Below are positions 368 to 32,833 of a stretch of DNA of 42,573 nt, one piece after another. Source of the DNA: Gammaproteobacteria bacterium (GTDB taxonomy: Bacteria > Pseudomonadota > Gammaproteobacteria > Eutrophobiales > Eutrophobiaceae); the NCBI GenBank assembly GCA_030829955.1, contig JAURNY010000020.1:1-42573 (forward strand), in the 5' to 3' direction. Every line of letters begins with the position of its first letter. Within the stretch, counting starts at the first letter, position 1. A program made the translations under genes and the position numbers. Under the pieces are notes generated by a model that was not told the origin of the DNA, did not search any database, and saw nothing but the letters and a program-made list of their open reading frames with translations.

Positions 368-431
368 ACTATTATTAAACCTGTTGTGATTATGACTGTC
401 GAATTAAACATTGCTATGTAAGAATAAACTT

Positions 432-2258
432 ATGCGAATCTCATTACTTGTATTACTCTCAATTTTAACGCTAACTGCCTGCGGACCTGCAAGGGAAGAT
501 AATGTCACACAGGTTGACCTGGAACAATCCGCCCGTGAGTTTCTACAAACAGGTGACTATTCCGCAGCAGCCGAAACCTATTTGGTATTAGTAGAAGATG
601 ACAAAACTAATGCCTCTTTATACCGATTAAAGGCCAGCGCAGCATTTATTGAAGCAGGTAATTACGATCGTGCCTTTGAAATTCTGCAAAATACAAACAT
701 AAGCGAAGAAGAGAGCCTGCAGGTTGCCCGCAAAGAAATATTAAGCGCCAGACTCAATCTTGAATTTGGACAGGCTGCTCAGGCAGTCAACATATTGCAA
801 GGCTTGCCAGCAGACACTATTCCACCCAATCTGCGCTATGCCTATCACGATATACTTGCTCGGGCACATTACAAACAAGCTGAATATATGGCAGCAATAA
901 AAGAGCGATTAATTGCCGATGAATTTGCTGGCGAAAATAAGGAAGAGAATTATCGACAGCTCTGGACAACCTTGCGCGATATTCCAACTGATATACTGGA
1001 AGAAAACCGCTTTAATACAGATCAAGATATTGCCAGTTGGCTAGAATTAGTCTCAATCTATCGCACCTATCGCTTTAATCCGGATCGATTAGATGATGCC
1101 ATTGAAGGCTGGAAACAACGTTATCATGACCACCCGGCGTTTGTTTCTATCGTGCCGGGGATGAGAGAAAAAAGCGCGATTTATGTTCATCGGCCAAAGA
1201 AAATTGGCTTGTTATTACCATTTAATAATCAGTTTAAAAAAGCTTCTGCCGCAGTTCGTGATGGTTTACTGGCAGCCTGGTATCAAGACAACAACAAGGA
1301 TAAATCACAAATCGTTGTATACGATTGCAATGCATTAAATATCACAGAAACCTACCGACAAGCAGTAAACGACGGTGTGGAATACATTGTCGGTCCATTG
1401 GAAAAAGAAGCGGTGCAAAGTTTGATGCAAATGTCAGATTTAACAATTCCCGTGCTGGCTTTAAATCGTCTGGATAATGTAACGGAATGGAAAAAAGACA
1501 AACTGATACAGTTTGGTCTGGCACCGGAAGATGAGGCTATGCAGATAGCCGACATTGCCAAACAGGACGGCTATTCCATGGCGCTGGTGATCACACCGGA
1601 CAATAACTGGGGGAGACGAATTGCAGAGAGTTTTCAACAGCGTTGGAATGAACTCGGCGGAACTGTTCTGGAACAGGTTCATTTTTCTGGCGAGCGACGT
1701 GATTTCGCTACTCCAGTAAAAGAAGTACTAAACATCGATAGTAGTAAAGCCCGAATTCAGGATGTTCGCAATACATTAAACTTACGTTTGAATTCCGAGG
1801 AACGCCGCCGACAGGATGCTGAATTTATTTTTGCGGTTGCCATACCGGCTGATGCCAGACAATTATTACCGCAAGTGCGTTTTTTTCGCGCAGAAGATTT
1901 ACCTATCTATTCTACATCACACATTTTTTCAGGGATCGTAGATAGCACACGTGATACCGACATGAATAATGTGTTATTTGTCGATATACCTTGGGTTATT
2001 GATACTAGACGTCAACTTTCATTGATACAGGATAATCTGAATAATTCACTTAATCAAAACAATTCAAACTATCGCCGCTTATATGCAATGGGCATAGATG
2101 CTTACCATTTAATACCCGAACTCAATCGTATGCGTTTGGAAAAAAATGTGGTGTTTAGTGGTGAAACTGGAGATCTACAATTAAGTAATGACAATATATT
2201 AAAACGCAAATTACTCCGAGCGCAGTTTTTAGATGGAAAACCGGTCTTGATTAAGTAA
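432..2258 (+). CDS. lpoA: Penicillin-binding protein activator LpoA (LppC family lipoprotein)
   Basis: LpoA is an outer-membrane lipoprotein that reaches through the periplasm to stimulate the peptidoglycan synthase PBP1A. The 608-residue protein starts with a lipoprotein signal peptide whose lipobox LTAC puts the lipidated Cys at residue 17. An N-terminal helical TPR-like part (about residues 30-220) is followed by a periplasmic-binding-protein-like fold from about residue 256, starting KIGLLLPF. A TTG in the same frame at 411 would add seven residues in front of the signal peptide, so the ATG at 432 is preferred. The length is close to E. coli LpoA, and the position beside rsmI agrees with the family's usual location. 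Downstream lies a decayed yraN, then diaA. Confidence 0.93.
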   Translation: MRISLLVLLSILTLTACGPAREDNVTQVDLEQSAREFLQTGDYSAAAETYLVLVEDDKTNASLYRLKASAAFIEAGNYDRAFEILQNTNISEEESLQVARKEILSARLNLEFGQAAQAVNILQGLPADTIPPNLRYAYHDILARAHYKQAEYMAAIKERLIADEFAGENKEENYRQLWTTLRDIPTDILEENRFNTDQDIASWLELVSIYRTYRFNPDRLDDAIEGWKQRYHDHPAFVSIVPGMREKSAIYVHRPKKIGLLLPFNNQFKKASAAVRDGLLAAWYQDNNKDKSQIVVYDCNALNITETYRQAVNDGVEYIVGPLEKEAVQSLMQMSDLTIPVLALNRLDNVTEWKKDKLIQFGLAPEDEAMQIADIAKQDGYSMALVITPDNNWGRRIAESFQQRWNELGGTVLEQVHFSGERRDFATPVKEVLNIDSSKARIQDVRNTLNLRLNSEERRRQDAEFIFAVAIPADARQLLPQVRFFRAEDLPIYSTSHIFSGIVDSTRDTDMNNVLFVDIPWVIDTRRQLSLIQDNLNNSLNQNNSNYRRLYAMGIDAYHLIPELNRMRLEKNVVFSGETGDLQLSNDNILKRKLLRAQFLDGKPVLIK

Positions 2259-2266
2259 GTATATAA

Positions 2267-2575
2267 GTGCAAGGATTATTTATATCGACGGAAATTAGTA
2301 AATTGACAGAAGACATCGCCGCTAACTATCTCACTGAACAATCAATAACCATAGTAAAAAACTCTCGCTGTCGCTTTGGTTAAATTGATCTAATAGCATT
2401 ATAGATTAACTGTTGCGTCTTTATTGAAGTACGTTACCGAAGACACCCCTCATTATTGTCCACATTAGATACGATTAATCAGGCAAAGATGAATAAACTA
2501 ATTTCCACCAGCGAATATTTTTTATTATTTGATTTTATTGGCATTGCCGAGACCTTAATAATCCCAAAAAAGTAG
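2267..2575 (+). pseudogene. yraN: Decayed yraN (UPF0102, endonuclease-like fold)
   Basis: One reading frame in the lpoA-diaA gap still spells YraN sequence but is broken. It reads LTEDIAANYLTEQ, then NSRCRFG, a TAA at 2381 where the family has the Glu of GEIDLI, IDLIAL, a TAG at 2402, CVFIEVRYRRHPS, then EYFL joined directly to LFDFIGIAE, and a stop at 2573. The conserved blocks RCR.GEIDLI, FVEVRYR and the late RFDVI block are therefore all recognisable, with two internal stops and about 15 residues missing before the last block. A GTG at 2267 may be the old start. yraN is the gene normally found exactly here. No intact product can be made without stop readthrough. Positions 2576-2714 hold nothing I recognise apart from a 7-bp inverted repeat. 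Confidence 0.8.
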
Positions 2576-2699
2576 CAAAAATCGTAATCAATTCACCTAC
2601 TGAATTGCATCTAGCAATTCGATAATCACAAAAACTAACAGCCATTTGAATGAAAAACTGGAATCATTAGTAGTGATTCAGGCATAATCACATTTTTAA

Positions 2700-3308
<609 letters not shown>

Positions 3309-3324
3309 AAAGGAATTAGTTATT

Positions 3325-3906
3325 ATGAATAAATTACATATTGTTAGTCTTATATTTTCATTAATTGCATTATTTATGTTATCCGGTTGCGCAGCCGTTG
3401 CTATCGGAGGGGCTGGCGCTGCAGCTACGTCATTTAAAGACAGACGAACTACAGGAGCTCAGATAGAAGACCAAACGATTGAAGTGAAAGTCGGACTGAA
3501 ATTACGTGCTGATGCTGAAATTGATGAACAGGCTCATATTAATGTCACTAGTTACAACACTGTTGTTTTACTTACCGGCGAAACTCCTACCGATACCATA
3601 CGCCAACGTGCAGTAGATCTAGTGAAAAGCGTTGAAAAGGTCACACATATCTATAATGAATTAACTATTAACGCGCCCAGCTCCATGACATCTCGTAGTA
3701 GTGACTCATTGATTACCTCTAAATTAAAAACCAAACTCTTTACTAATGAAGGCGTAAATGGTTTAGCTGTTAAAATTATTACTGAAAAAGGTGTTGTTTA
3801 TCTGATGGGGCTGGTAAGTAAAGCAGAAGCAGAAGCAGCAACTGATATTGCGCGCAACACCGGCGGAGTGCAAAAAGTCATAAAACTCTTTCAATACATT
3901 GACTAA
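3325..3906 (+). CDS. dolP: Outer-membrane lipoprotein with two BON domains, DolP/YraP family
   Basis: DolP is an outer-membrane lipoprotein that supports envelope integrity and BAM function by binding anionic phospholipid. The 193-residue protein begins with a lipoprotein signal peptide ending FMLSGC (lipidated Cys at 22), then a Gly/Ala-rich linker. BON domain 1 follows (about residues 45-115, with INVTSYNTVVLLTGE) and BON domain 2 (about 125-190, with GVVYLMGLVSKAEAEAA). The frame is open further upstream, inside diaA, but the ATG at 3325 has an AGGA ribosome binding site and starts the signal peptide. The gene order lpoA-(yraN)-diaA-dolP is the conserved one. Confidence 0.9.
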   Translation: MNKLHIVSLIFSLIALFMLSGCAAVAIGGAGAAATSFKDRRTTGAQIEDQTIEVKVGLKLRADAEIDEQAHINVTSYNTVVLLTGETPTDTIRQRAVDLVKSVEKVTHIYNELTINAPSSMTSRSSDSLITSKLKTKLFTNEGVNGLAVKIITEKGVVYLMGLVSKAEAEAATDIARNTGGVQKVIKLFQYID

Positions 3907-4244
3907 AAATTTAAGCTATATATGGATTCATATAAATCTCTATCTACTTTACTAAAAAAGTAGGCAATGAACTCGTCAAAATATAATTCGTATTGCTGCA
4001 TCTTTTTCAATGTAATAGTTACTGCTTGCTCAACAGGATAACAGTAGATACCCATAATAATAGTTGGGGAAGTAATTATTTTACATTGTTTTTCACGCGC
4101 GACATTTAATATTAATTTGTACTGATAACAGGATCTTAATAAATCGGCTTCATCATAATTACCCCCATGCCAAACTGGACCGAAGGCATGGATAATCGCA
4201 TCAACTATTAACGTTGTGATATCAGCATGAATAATTTTGGTCAT
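3903..4244 (-). pseudogene. Internally deleted macrodomain (ADP-ribose/O-acetyl-ADP-ribose deacetylase family)
   Basis: The reading frame matches both ends of a YmdB-type macrodomain but lacks its middle. It starts MTKIIHADITTLIVDAI, as in GDIT..VDAIVNAAN, then jumps straight to IHAFGPVWHGGN, which belongs about 55-60 residues later in the family. It goes on through CYQYKLILNVAREKQCKIITSP and MGIYCYPVEQAVTITL. The missing part holds the NAAN and GGGGVDGAI ligand-binding segments. The substrate-loop sequence usually close to PAISTGIYG has become PTIIMGIYC. At 113 residues versus about 170-180 it is very unlikely to bind ADP-ribose. The frame stays open upstream to an ATG at 4325, which overlaps the start of the divergent DUF255 gene and shows no family similarity. 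Confidence 0.7.
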
Positions 4245-4313
4245 ATCAACACTGACTGTATATATTCGTGATAAATCGTTAAAGTGACATTTTATTAAAT
4301 TATAAACAGCATC

Positions 4314-6599
4314 ATGTTCAATCACTCTTCACAATTAAAAGATCAATTAAAAAAAGCGCTTTCTGAAAAAGGTGCAGATTATCAGGCCCGAACACGTTAC
4401 CTTGATCATAATACACAACCTGTCTATACCAACCGCCTGATTCTAGAAGACTCACCCTATTTATTACAACACGCGCATAACCCAGTCGATTGGTATCCAT
4501 GGGGGAAAGAGGCTTTTGAACAGGCTAAACAGCATAATAAACCTGTTTTTCTGTCTATTGGTTACTCAACATGTCATTGGTGTCATGTCATGGAAGAGGA
4601 AAGTTTTGATAATGAAGATGTTGCTAAAGTCATGAATGAACTTTTCATTTGTATCAAGGTTGATCGTGAATTAAACCCGGATGTAGATACCTACTATATG
4701 ACTGCCGTCATGATGATGCAGGGGCAAGGTGGTTGGCCGATGAGTAGTTTTCTAACGCCCGATAGAAAACCATTCTTTGGTGCCACTTATTTCAGACCCG
4801 GACAATTTTTAACATTGATGCATCGTGTTGATGAATTATGGCAACAACAATATCAGGATTTAATTGAACAAGCTGATCACTACAGTCAGCAAATCAGTAA
4901 TGCCATGGCTGCAAGAACATCGTTAAACGAGATTGGGATTAATGTAGTAGAGCTTACCGCGCAAACATTAATGAATCATTATGATCCACAGCATGCCGGC
5001 TTTGGTGGCGCACCCAAGTTTCCGAATGAACCTTATCTTTATTTTCTGTTTGACTATGTCATCTTCAAACAGGATGAAGAGATACTATCCCGACTAACGG
5101 AAACTCTGGATGTACTATTATGTGGAGGTATTTATGATCAGTTCGGTGGAGGCTTTCATCGCTATGCTACCGATGCCAACTGGTTAATTCCGCATTTTGA
5201 GAAAATGCTTTATAACCAGGCAAATCTGGCAGTTCTTTATACTCAAGCATGGCAAATAACACATAATCCAGAGTACAAACGTATCAGCAAAGAAATACTG
5301 GACTATGTATTGCGGGAAATGACTAATGCCGACGGCGCGTTTTTTTCAGCGACTGATGCCGATAGTGAAGGTGAAGAAGGTAAATATTTTGTCTGGAATA
5401 GTGAAGAGATTAAATCGATCCTCGGTAATGATGCCGGTTTGCTTATCGATTTGTATCAATTTAGCGATGCTGGAAATTTTGAAGGATATACCATCCCTAA
5501 TCTGAATAAACCTTTAAATTATTATGCTAAAAAAAATGGGTATGATTATGATGAATTACTTATCAGGCTCGACAAAATAAAAGAAACATTATTAGCTGAA
5601 AGAATTAAACGTATTCCACCTTTGCTTGATGACAAAGTCATTACCGCATGGAATGGCATGATGATAAAAGCATTTTCGTTTGCTAGTTTGATATTCAATG
5701 AATCCAGCTATATTGTTGCCGCAGAACGTGCAGCACATTATGTCCTAAAAACTAATAAGACTAACAATAATCAACTTAGCCGAACCAGCCTGAATGGTAA
5801 TGCTACAACATCTGCACTACAGGAAGATTACGCTTATCTGGCAGAGGCATTACTTCTTCTTTATGACGCTACTCAAAATAATTTCTGGCTGGAACACGCC
5901 CGTAAACTTACTAATTACATGCTGAAACACTTTTGGGACAAAGAAACGGGCGGCTTCTTTATGTCAGCACAAACAGGTAACAATTTATTACCCTCTGCGC
6001 CAAAAGAAACCCAGGATAATGCCACTTCATCAGGTAATTCTGTTGCACTAAACCTCGTCTGCAGATTATGGCGCCGCACCGGTGATGCAAATTATCAACA
6101 CTATGGACAACAGCTTGTGCAGGCATTCTCAGATGATATATCGCAACGACCATATAGTTCAGCTTATATGATCAAGGGGCTACTGGAATTATTAGCCGGG
6201 GAACAACAATCATATTGCTGGGCAGGTAATGGCAAAGTATTCATTAATGCATGCGCTATGGAGCAGGATGAATATTATCTATTATCCATCGACATTAATA
6301 TTAACGAGGGCAACTATCTAAACCTGCAAGAAGATTCAGAACTCCCAGTTTTACTTGAAACTGAACGGGGCTGGCACGTTGAAGATATTGAGTATCCTGA
6401 TACGGTTGAAAAACAGGTTCAATACCAAATAGAAACGAAAAAAGTTTATGAGGGTAACATCACGATTAATGCCAAATTGCGCGCAATCGATACTAATAAA
6501 CTGAATATTTGCAAACTAAAACTGACACTACAGGCTTGTGATACAACTCATTGCTTAGCACAGGAAAAACATATCGTCACTGTGTTTTTAGCTCATTAA
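4314..6599 (+). CDS. DUF255 thioredoxin-like / glycosidase-fold protein with DsbD-alpha-like C-terminal domain
   Basis: This 761-residue protein belongs to the YyaL/SSP411 (DUF255) family. Residues about 40-200 form the thioredoxin-like domain, with [20 protein letters not shown], the CHWC motif at 87-90 and GGWPMS. Residues about 200-630 form an (alpha/alpha)6-barrel like N-acylglucosamine 2-epimerase, with [17 protein letters not shown] and [10 protein letters not shown]. The last 120 or so residues are additional: [12 protein letters not shown] and [13 protein letters not shown] resemble the N-terminal domain of DsbD, including a Cys pair (CX4C). The N-terminal 40 residues ending PVYTNRLI support the start at 4314. 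No signal peptide is visible. The biochemical function of the family is unsettled. The stop overlaps the convergent gene by four bases. Confidence 0.85.
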
Positions 6600-31005: not shown

Positions 31006-31090
31006 GCCGGGGTGGCGGAATTGGTAGACGCGCCGGATTCAAAATCCGGTTTCTTCGGAAGTGCGAGTTCGATTCTCGCCCTCGGCACCA
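31006..31090 (+). tRNA. tRNA-Leu (anticodon CAA), CCA encoded
   Basis: The 85-base class II tRNA folds with acceptor stem GCCGGGG/CCTCGGC (one G-T pair) and D-arm containing GGTAGAC. The anticodon stem is CCGGA/TCCGG around the loop TTCAAAA, giving anticodon CAA for TTG codons. A long variable arm (TTCTTCGGAAG) and the T-arm with GTTCGATTC follow. The long variable arm and D-loop type fit leucine. The 3' CCA is encoded. It lies about 45 bases after the GGA-rich RNA and could share its promoter. Confidence 0.97.
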
Positions 31091-31212
31091 AACATCTAAC
31101 TTCTTCCAATATAAAATCCACATCGGAGAATTTTAAAATTGTCAGCGATAGCCTTTCGCCATTAATAAACAGTAATAACGGTGAACCAATCGATCTGAAT
31201 AAAATAGAAAAT

Positions 31213-31482
31213 ATGCTTGGACTGGCACTGGCTAACTCCAAACAACTTGTGAAAATTACTGAAAATTTAAATCAGTTTAGTTATGACACTGGTGAAGCTG
31301 AACATCTCTCTATGCTTCTAGCAGAACATATTAAGCAGATTGATTTAATGTTGGCTCAACAAATGAAAGAGGTCGATGTGCGGGTTGCTGAACACAGGGA
31401 CAATGTTTTTGAACGCGCTACTATCTTAGTACTGATATTTAGCATTATTTTTCCTATCGTGTTTTTTCCTATTACTTACTAG
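31213..31482 (+). CDS. Unknown small protein with C-terminal membrane anchor
   Basis: I do not recognise this protein. From the ATG at 31213 it has 89 residues: a mostly helical, charged segment (SKQLVKITENLNQ, AEHIKQIDLMLAQQMKEVDV, VAEHRDNVFERA) likely to form a coiled coil, then one strongly hydrophobic helix at the very C-terminus (ILVLIFSIIFPIVFF) followed by only a few residues. That gives the shape of a tail-anchored membrane protein. The frame remains open and protein-like upstream (LINSNNGEPIDLNKIENM) as far as the tRNA, and a GGAG at 31125 lies nine bases before an ATT at 31138, so the true start may be a rare ATT adding 25 residues. It ends 19 bases before the convergent cinA-like gene. 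Confidence 0.5.
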   Translation: MLGLALANSKQLVKITENLNQFSYDTGEAEHLSMLLAEHIKQIDLMLAQQMKEVDVRVAEHRDNVFERATILVLIFSIIFPIVFFPITY

Positions 31483-32260: not shown

Positions 32261-32371
32261 TATATAACCTTACTAAATTTGGTTTTTCCAAAATTTTCAG
32301 AATTTAAAATAGTCATAATTTTTGAAAAAAAAATTAATATTTTTCCCACAATCTTAACAGAGGAATAAATT

Positions 32372-32772
32372 GTGAAAACTCTAGTAAATATGATTATCGC
32401 CTTTGTGACCGAAATTAGCATCTCAAATGCTTCAGAAAATTATGAAAACCTTATCAAATAGTTGATAGGAAAATTATCGAGAATGCCATGAATGGCTGAC
32501 GAACCTACAATTGTAGCAGTTGCGGGGCATGTAATGATCGTGGCGCTGTTGGTTCTTTCGGACAAATCTTGCGAATAGCTTTAAAAACAAACTGGCAAAG
32601 GAGCAATCTAAAGATTGTGACTAATGTTGTATTTGGGACGATGATGATGCCACACAAAATTAATAAACCTGTTTAGGATAAACTAGATGACCTATATGTA
32701 TATTTATTGGCACGTGCTGATAATATTTTAGGCCCAGCTAATCTAATTAAATCACCTTTAGATAAGGAATAA
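32372..32772 (+). pseudogene. Remains of a periplasmic cytochrome c gene
   Basis: An AGAGGAA ribosome binding site precedes a GTG at 32372 that starts a signal-peptide-like MKTLVNMIIAFVTEIS; this frame stops at 32459. In another frame, CGAC (32521-32532) is followed directly by NDRGAVGSFGQ, which looks like a CxxCHG-type heme site from which the His-Gly codons were lost. That frame runs through VVFGTMMMPHKI to a TAG at 32674 and on to DKLDDLYVYLLARADNILGP, a typical end of small c-type cytochromes, stopping at 32770. So there is at least one frameshift, one internal stop and a lost heme His. The C-terminal motif recalls cytochromes that partner PQQ dehydrogenases, but this is a weak guess. 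The rest of the 573-base gap (32261-32371) is AT-rich with nothing recognisable. Confidence 0.6.
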
Positions 32773-32790
32773 CTCTGAAATAACACACAA

Positions 32791-32817
32791 AAAAAACGGC
32801 TTTAAGCCGCTTTTTTT
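32791..32817. terminator. Bidirectional intrinsic terminator downstream of panD
   Basis: The hairpin CGGC-TTTAA-GCCG (up to CGGCTT/AAGCCG) is flanked by a run of A on its left and seven T on its right, so it can terminate transcription from both directions. It lies 17 bases beyond the panD stop on the minus strand and about 20 bases beyond the end of the cytochrome remains on the plus strand, and would have served both genes. Confidence 0.85.
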
Positions 32818-32833
32818 ATTTACCTTTGTTAAG

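Follow-up and report, generated by a model that had tools for sequence, protein, structure and literature searches.

A yraN relic at its conserved place between lpoA and diaA, and the joint absence of YraN and transformation genes in a gammaproteobacterial family

Introduction

Why would a gene die at its conserved place between two intact neighbors, and what does its decay say about its function? This question is raised by the interval between lpoA and diaA in a 42,573-nt stretch of a gammaproteobacterial draft genome (GenBank assembly GCA_030829955.1, contig JAURNY010000020.1, positions 1 to 42,573 of the forward strand; hereafter the window), where an initial annotation had read a dead copy of yraN. 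YraN/UPF0102 was for years a family without an assigned function, and its link to ComM and natural transformation is only now emerging; a 2024 bioRxiv preprint by Hardy et al. reportedly proposes, in its title, a YraN-ComM role in natural transformation. Published sources describe YraN as a small nuclease of the PD-(D/E)XK type which, together with the ComM helicase, acts on recombination intermediates as incoming strands integrate in natural transformation (PMC12455585; PMC1189080). They also place YraN among the PD-(D/E)XK nucleases with an ID-EVK motif (PMC1189080), predict a YraN-YifB domain pair from coevolution, with too little information to judge the pair (PMC6822775), and report one UPF0102/Hjc-like protein that was expressed and for which no activity was detected (PMC10140301). 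Among the literature matches listed, whose titles and opening abstract lines were covered outside bioRxiv, none describes a co-loss of yraN with transformation genes.

Results

The lpoA-diaA slot of the window (positions 2259-2714, 456 nt) holds an unmistakable relic of yraN (UPF0102, PF02021), in the gene order lpoA-yraN-diaA of its relatives and between two neighbors that were both confirmed by Pfam (Table 1); the true start of lpoA is probably the ATG at 432. The length of the slot lies in the usual range of intact loci (397-467 nt in 21 of 23, the remaining two being 360 and 649 nt). With its stops translated as X, the relic matches positions 2-80 of the 80 of the PF02021 profile, scoring 62 bits (E 7e-17) where the cut-off is 23.6, and in a search of the whole host genome (G000, a 1.89-Mb draft of 1,885,491 bases in 32 contigs, 100 % complete) it reaches E 1.2e-16; E values of this size make a chance match far-fetched. 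The initial annotation had proposed both this profile comparison and a search for a second yraN: the comparison bears out the identity of the relic, and the profile search of the 32 contigs gave no second PF02021 match, the relic being the sole one. Among NCBIfam models, 18 were hit by the relic, YraN models included, each below its own cut-off, as expected of a damaged copy.

Table 1. Features of the yraN relic, its two neighbors and the dprA relic, in window coordinates unless another locus is named.
Feature	Position	Strand	Basis
lpoA (LppC), intact, upstream of the relic	411..2258	+	ORF; PF04348 E 9e-110
yraN (UPF0102) relic, readable center in one frame with two stops	2267..2575	+	translation, PF02021 search
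Ruined 5' end: start region CA(A/T)GGATG of 11 intact relatives replaced by CAAGGATT; next stretch out of frame	2270..2308	+	alignment
TAA in place of the Glu codon of the GE-ID active-site motif	2381..2383	+	Glu invariant in 23 intact relatives
TAG stop immediately 3' of the IDLIAL block	2402..2404	+	translation, alignment
Junction left by the deletion of about 11 codons, SEYFLL / FDFIGI	2515..2530	+	protein alignment
Scrambled last third, longer than that of relatives	2576..2676	+	alignment
Final yraN codons (Gln-Ala-stop at 2679-2687) recognizable, then CACATTTTT as in the sister genome	2677..2687	+	alignment
diaA (SIS domain), intact, downstream of the relic	2715..3308	+	ORF, Pfam
Remains of dprA: core deleted, two fragments not in the same frame, a stop	L202 4056-4582, host contig 29	-	fetched contig start

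The lesions were mapped by aligning the slot with its intact counterparts in 11 close relatives and the encoded protein with 23 intact YraN proteins. The blocks RCRFG-stop-IDLIAL-stop, FIEVRYRRHPS and FDFIGIAE stand in one frame, and the two stops lie where they had first been read, the earlier one at the Glu codon of GEIDLI. The active-site motif E-ID-E(V)K/R is therefore incomplete, ID and EVR being kept while the first Glu has become a stop. The start codon aligned in the 11 relatives is absent from the relic, and 34 nt separate the start place from the first conserved Glu, compared to 45 nt in L062 and L064 (a hand count on the alignment). Three details of the initial annotation had to be revised. 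About 15 residues had been given as missing; instead, the alignments with relatives show the deletion of about 11 codons before FDFIGI and, in addition, one single-codon deletion. The frame had been described as otherwise undisturbed, but the start is lost, the N-terminal stretch stands in another frame and the last third cannot be read. The extent of 2267-2575 holds for the readable center and not for the end at 2575, since yraN homology resumes at the final codons of the gene (Table 1). With two stops, no start, a frameshift and a scrambled last third, there is no open frame with a start, and the relic is a dead copy of yraN, a unitary pseudogene decaying in place.

The coding signature of the central block bears on the age of the inactivation. 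GC content by codon position is 35/35/35 % in the relic compared to 41-59/24-32/21-44 % in the 11 intact relatives, and identity to outgroup relatives at positions 1/2/3 is 60/73/38 % for the relic and 65/81/41 % for the gene of the sister genome (G001, 3.1 Mb, equated with locus L065 by matching coordinates). Thus, positions 1 and 2 show excess change in the relic relative to the sister, and none such in the adjacent diaA. The central block is still codon-structured: it keeps 9 of the 12 columns that are invariant in all 23 proteins and 18 of the 24 invariant in the 11 closest, and the sister gene keeps 24 of the 28 invariant in the other 10. The flat codon-position GC and the several lesions of different kinds imply that the inactivation is not fresh. 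Judged from these sequence patterns, yraN has drifted here for some time, though it is still recognizable; the earlier description of the inactivation as recent agrees with the codon-structured center and is true only in a relative sense.

Related slots were compared in the 31 nearest loci (L062-L092) of the 80 named. Both lpoA and diaA are held by 30 of the 31, with yraN between them in 23 of these 30 and missing in 7. Two yraN-less slots, L063 (Thiotrichaceae bacterium UBA7359; 4776-5000, 225 nt) and L078 (Thiotrichaceae bacterium UBA7357; 4792-5000, 209 nt), retain the last yraN codons, and the five others, at 86-90 nt, represent clean loss. The window, L063 and L078, and the five short slots look like successive stages of decay, though not of one lineage.

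Several features outside the slot were noted. An ORF of 140 residues on the minus strand at 3903-4325 of the window matches only positions 53-117 of the 118 of the Macro domain PF01661; as its N-terminal half is missing, this ORF, which stands two genes away from the relic, looks like another decaying gene. A stretch of 573 nt at 32261-32833 (about 32 % GC), beside a cinA-like gene, has no convincing ORF and no Rfam match and is possibly another decayed gene. A tRNA-Leu (CAA) lies at 31006-31090 on the plus strand, and a mechanically called ORF at 31012-31482 begins within this tRNA gene and, at E 0.001, is matched by no Pfam profile. In a relative, locus L055 (G014 contig 78:118613-119200), the matched reading frame of diaA is reported to contain two TAA codons.

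Profile searches of the host genome for ComM (PF13335), DprA (PF02481) and ComEC (PF03772) gave no match, whereas ComM, DprA, ComEC and yraN are all there in the sister genome. At the syntenic site topA-smg-[dprA]-LysM-def-fmt (these names, and cinA above, were assigned by eye from translations), dprA residues 14-85 with a stop are followed by residues 281-380 in another frame, and residues 86-280 are missing. With this wreck at the gene's own site, a second gene of the transformation pathway is also a relic. The site of comM precedes apaG-apaH in the sister genome, and that of comEC is close to lolD and lpxK (apaG, lolD and lpxK again named by eye). By contrast, RuvC is intact in the host genome and the pilus secretin PilQ is matched above cut-off (E 9.5e-154); both findings speak against a wholesale breakdown of recombination or of pili in this genome. 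ComM was counted by its C-terminal domain, PF13335, because TIGR00368 (full ComM) weakly hits other proteins; a TIGR00368 hit of 28.5 bits in the host genome was rejected as ComM, being an open frame of 493 residues that was read by eye as RadA.

We then scored YraN, ComM, DprA, ComEC and RuvC across the family (53 genomes, our own included), where they are matched in 40 (the relic counted), 42, 41, 41 and 48 genomes, respectively; PilQ is above cut-off in 39 of 53. The loss of YraN, which had been called uncommon, is so in the class (YraN is matched in 168 of 187 genomes, the relic included) and less so in the family, where YraN is missing from several small-genome lineages. For the family statistics, the relic was scored as YraN lost, G023 and G040, which have partial ComM matches, were scored as ComM present, and G023, which has a partial DprA match with a stop, was scored as DprA present. 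YraN is absent or dead together with absence of ComM in 10 genomes, YraN alone is lost in 4, ComM alone in 1, and both are kept in 38. Fisher tests that ignore shared descent associated YraN loss with loss of ComM (p 5e-7), DprA (3e-6) and ComEC (7e-5), compared to 0.6 for the RuvC control. Missing YraN in three g15 drafts (77, 88 and 94 % complete) and in G050 (63 %) may reflect assembly gaps. That PF02021 and PF13335 match the same 8 of 14 control genomes was rejected as evidence for the pair, since RuvC hits those same 8.

All four genes (YraN, ComM, DprA and ComEC, the relic counted as lost) are missing in 9 of the 53 family genomes: our own, six members of genus g17 (1.0-1.5 Mb; 66-98 % complete), and G058 and G063 (1.8 and 1.6 Mb; 91 and 87 % complete), G058 being a genome in which PilQ is not above cut-off. 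On a quick tree without bootstraps, built from nine proteins around ruvC for 47 of the 53 genomes (the six left out are five in which RuvC is unmatched and G016, whose RuvC match is partial), the four-gene absence falls in three separate places that cover seven of the nine joint losers. Our genome is paired with the intact sister G001 (SH-aLRT 98), four g17 genomes (clade 100) group with the intact G007 (support 93), and G058 and G063 (clade 100) stand beside intact g4 genomes. A sign test on independent pairs of this tree gave 4 concordant, 0 discordant and 3 tied pairs for YraN and ComM (p 0.125), which are too few to decide; DprA gave the same result as ComM, and ComEC a weaker one. Two genomes are exceptions. 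In G023, yraN is intact, comM is reduced to a 27-residue match (L197 2053-2133), dprA to fragments with a stop (L198 735-1363), and ComEC has no match. In G004, yraN has no match, dprA and comEC are kept, and only a 3' piece of comM, its frame broken upstream, is found at a contig start (L196 1-600). These exceptions imply that the order of losses is not fixed.

The association was also seen in the class. Of 186 genomes that are at least 95 % complete, our own left out, 19 lack YraN and 17 lack ComM: both are missing from 12, YraN only from 7, ComM only from 5, and both are kept in 162 (odds ratio 56, p 1e-10 by a Fisher test that ignores descent). The absence lists, and the list of the 12 genomes below 1.5 Mb that is used below, were read from tables by eye.

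Discussion

We favor the interpretation, at a probability of a little under four in five, that yraN is a pseudogene because a reduced genome abandoned its transformation pathway and left yraN to decay without selection. By this mechanism, the pathway would have been given up, as the unmatched comEC and comM and the dprA wrecked at its own site suggest; yraN, with selection gone, would have decayed in place; and RuvC, which serves general recombination, and PilQ would have stayed, presumably in other functions. From this gene content we infer that the organism no longer transforms, and that abandoned transformation was the cause of the yraN loss, of which genome reduction alone would make a mere by-product; any order among the gene losses can likewise be proposed only conditionally. 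A broader version is held more tentatively, as possible though short of an even chance: within the family, YraN and ComM may have no lasting selectable function outside transformation, and would decay once ComEC and DprA are abandoned, while RuvC stays.

The main competing interpretation is that general genome reduction took yraN, as it took the other genes, and that YraN has no functional connection with transformation. Genome size is a genuine confounding factor: the nine joint losers measure only 1.0-1.9 Mb and are among the smallest genomes of the family, and since the joint losses concentrate in small genomes, streamlining alone could yield them. The exceptions in both directions, G023 and G004, also suit this interpretation. 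Yet RuvC, likewise a junction-processing nuclease, is kept in all 33 good family genomes, our own included, and all four genes are still present in G013 (1.7 Mb, 83 % complete) and G024 (1.6 Mb, 79 % complete) despite their small size. Moreover, the co-absence of YraN and ComM in the class persists when the 12 genomes below 1.5 Mb are removed (n = 174; 5 with both absent, 7 with YraN only, 3 with ComM only and 159 with both kept; p 3e-5), and the two proteins are linked in earlier papers (PMC12455585; PMC6822775). We consequently regard reduction by itself as rather unlikely, though not to be taken lightly.

Explanations confined to the slot fare worse. The host genome is a draft of 32 contigs, in which a sequencing or assembly error might have broken an intact yraN, but the relic carries five or more distinct lesions (a lost start, a frameshift, the two stops, deletions and the scrambled last third), its codon composition is erased while its neighbors are normal, and a second relic, dprA, is found in the same genome. 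Lesions of this depth, together with the erased codon-position GC, cannot be accounted for by errors at two bases, and we give this explanation next to no weight. It is very improbable, too, that the relic is kept in a new role, as the leader or promoter region of diaA or as a small RNA. The slot still spans its full length, compared to 86-90 nt in the five relatives with clean loss, which would fit such a role; however, Rfam gave no match, a weak folding scan of 2576-2714 gave a z-score of -1.0 and no notable RNA structure, and an equally weak promoter scan of 2200-2800 gave one site, on the minus strand, compared to 2.5 in shuffled sequences. An alternative genetic code or recoding was rejected: the stops are of two kinds, other lesions interrupt the frame, and the neighboring genes read normally to their own stops.

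The event itself is ordinary, a new instance of a unitary pseudogene, and it bears on an open functional question. The relics of yraN and dprA, the lack of a comM or comEC match, the retention of RuvC and PilQ, and the three joint losses in the family provide independent natural evidence for the role of YraN. The joint loss fits, as useful evidence, the proposal that YraN largely serves natural transformation, and the joint-loss genomes name places in which that role can be tested. If the broader version is true, an intact yraN could mark a working transformation pathway in genome data, and G023, with yraN intact and the others broken, would be a lineage caught midway.

Compared to the YraN/UPF0102 family (PF02021, TIGR00252), the relic is alike in its whole-domain match and its lpoA-yraN-diaA place, and unlike in lacking an open frame and a start and in having a stop for the active-site Glu. 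The sister genome has both genes of the YraN-ComM transformation system; the host has lost the two, and what it shows of that system is gene loss. A further parallel comes from another gammaproteobacterium, Piscirickettsia salmonis. It too is reported to have a broken transformation gene; there, transposable elements interrupt comEC (PMC12955456), whereas the set in our host was hit by point changes, indels and deletions.
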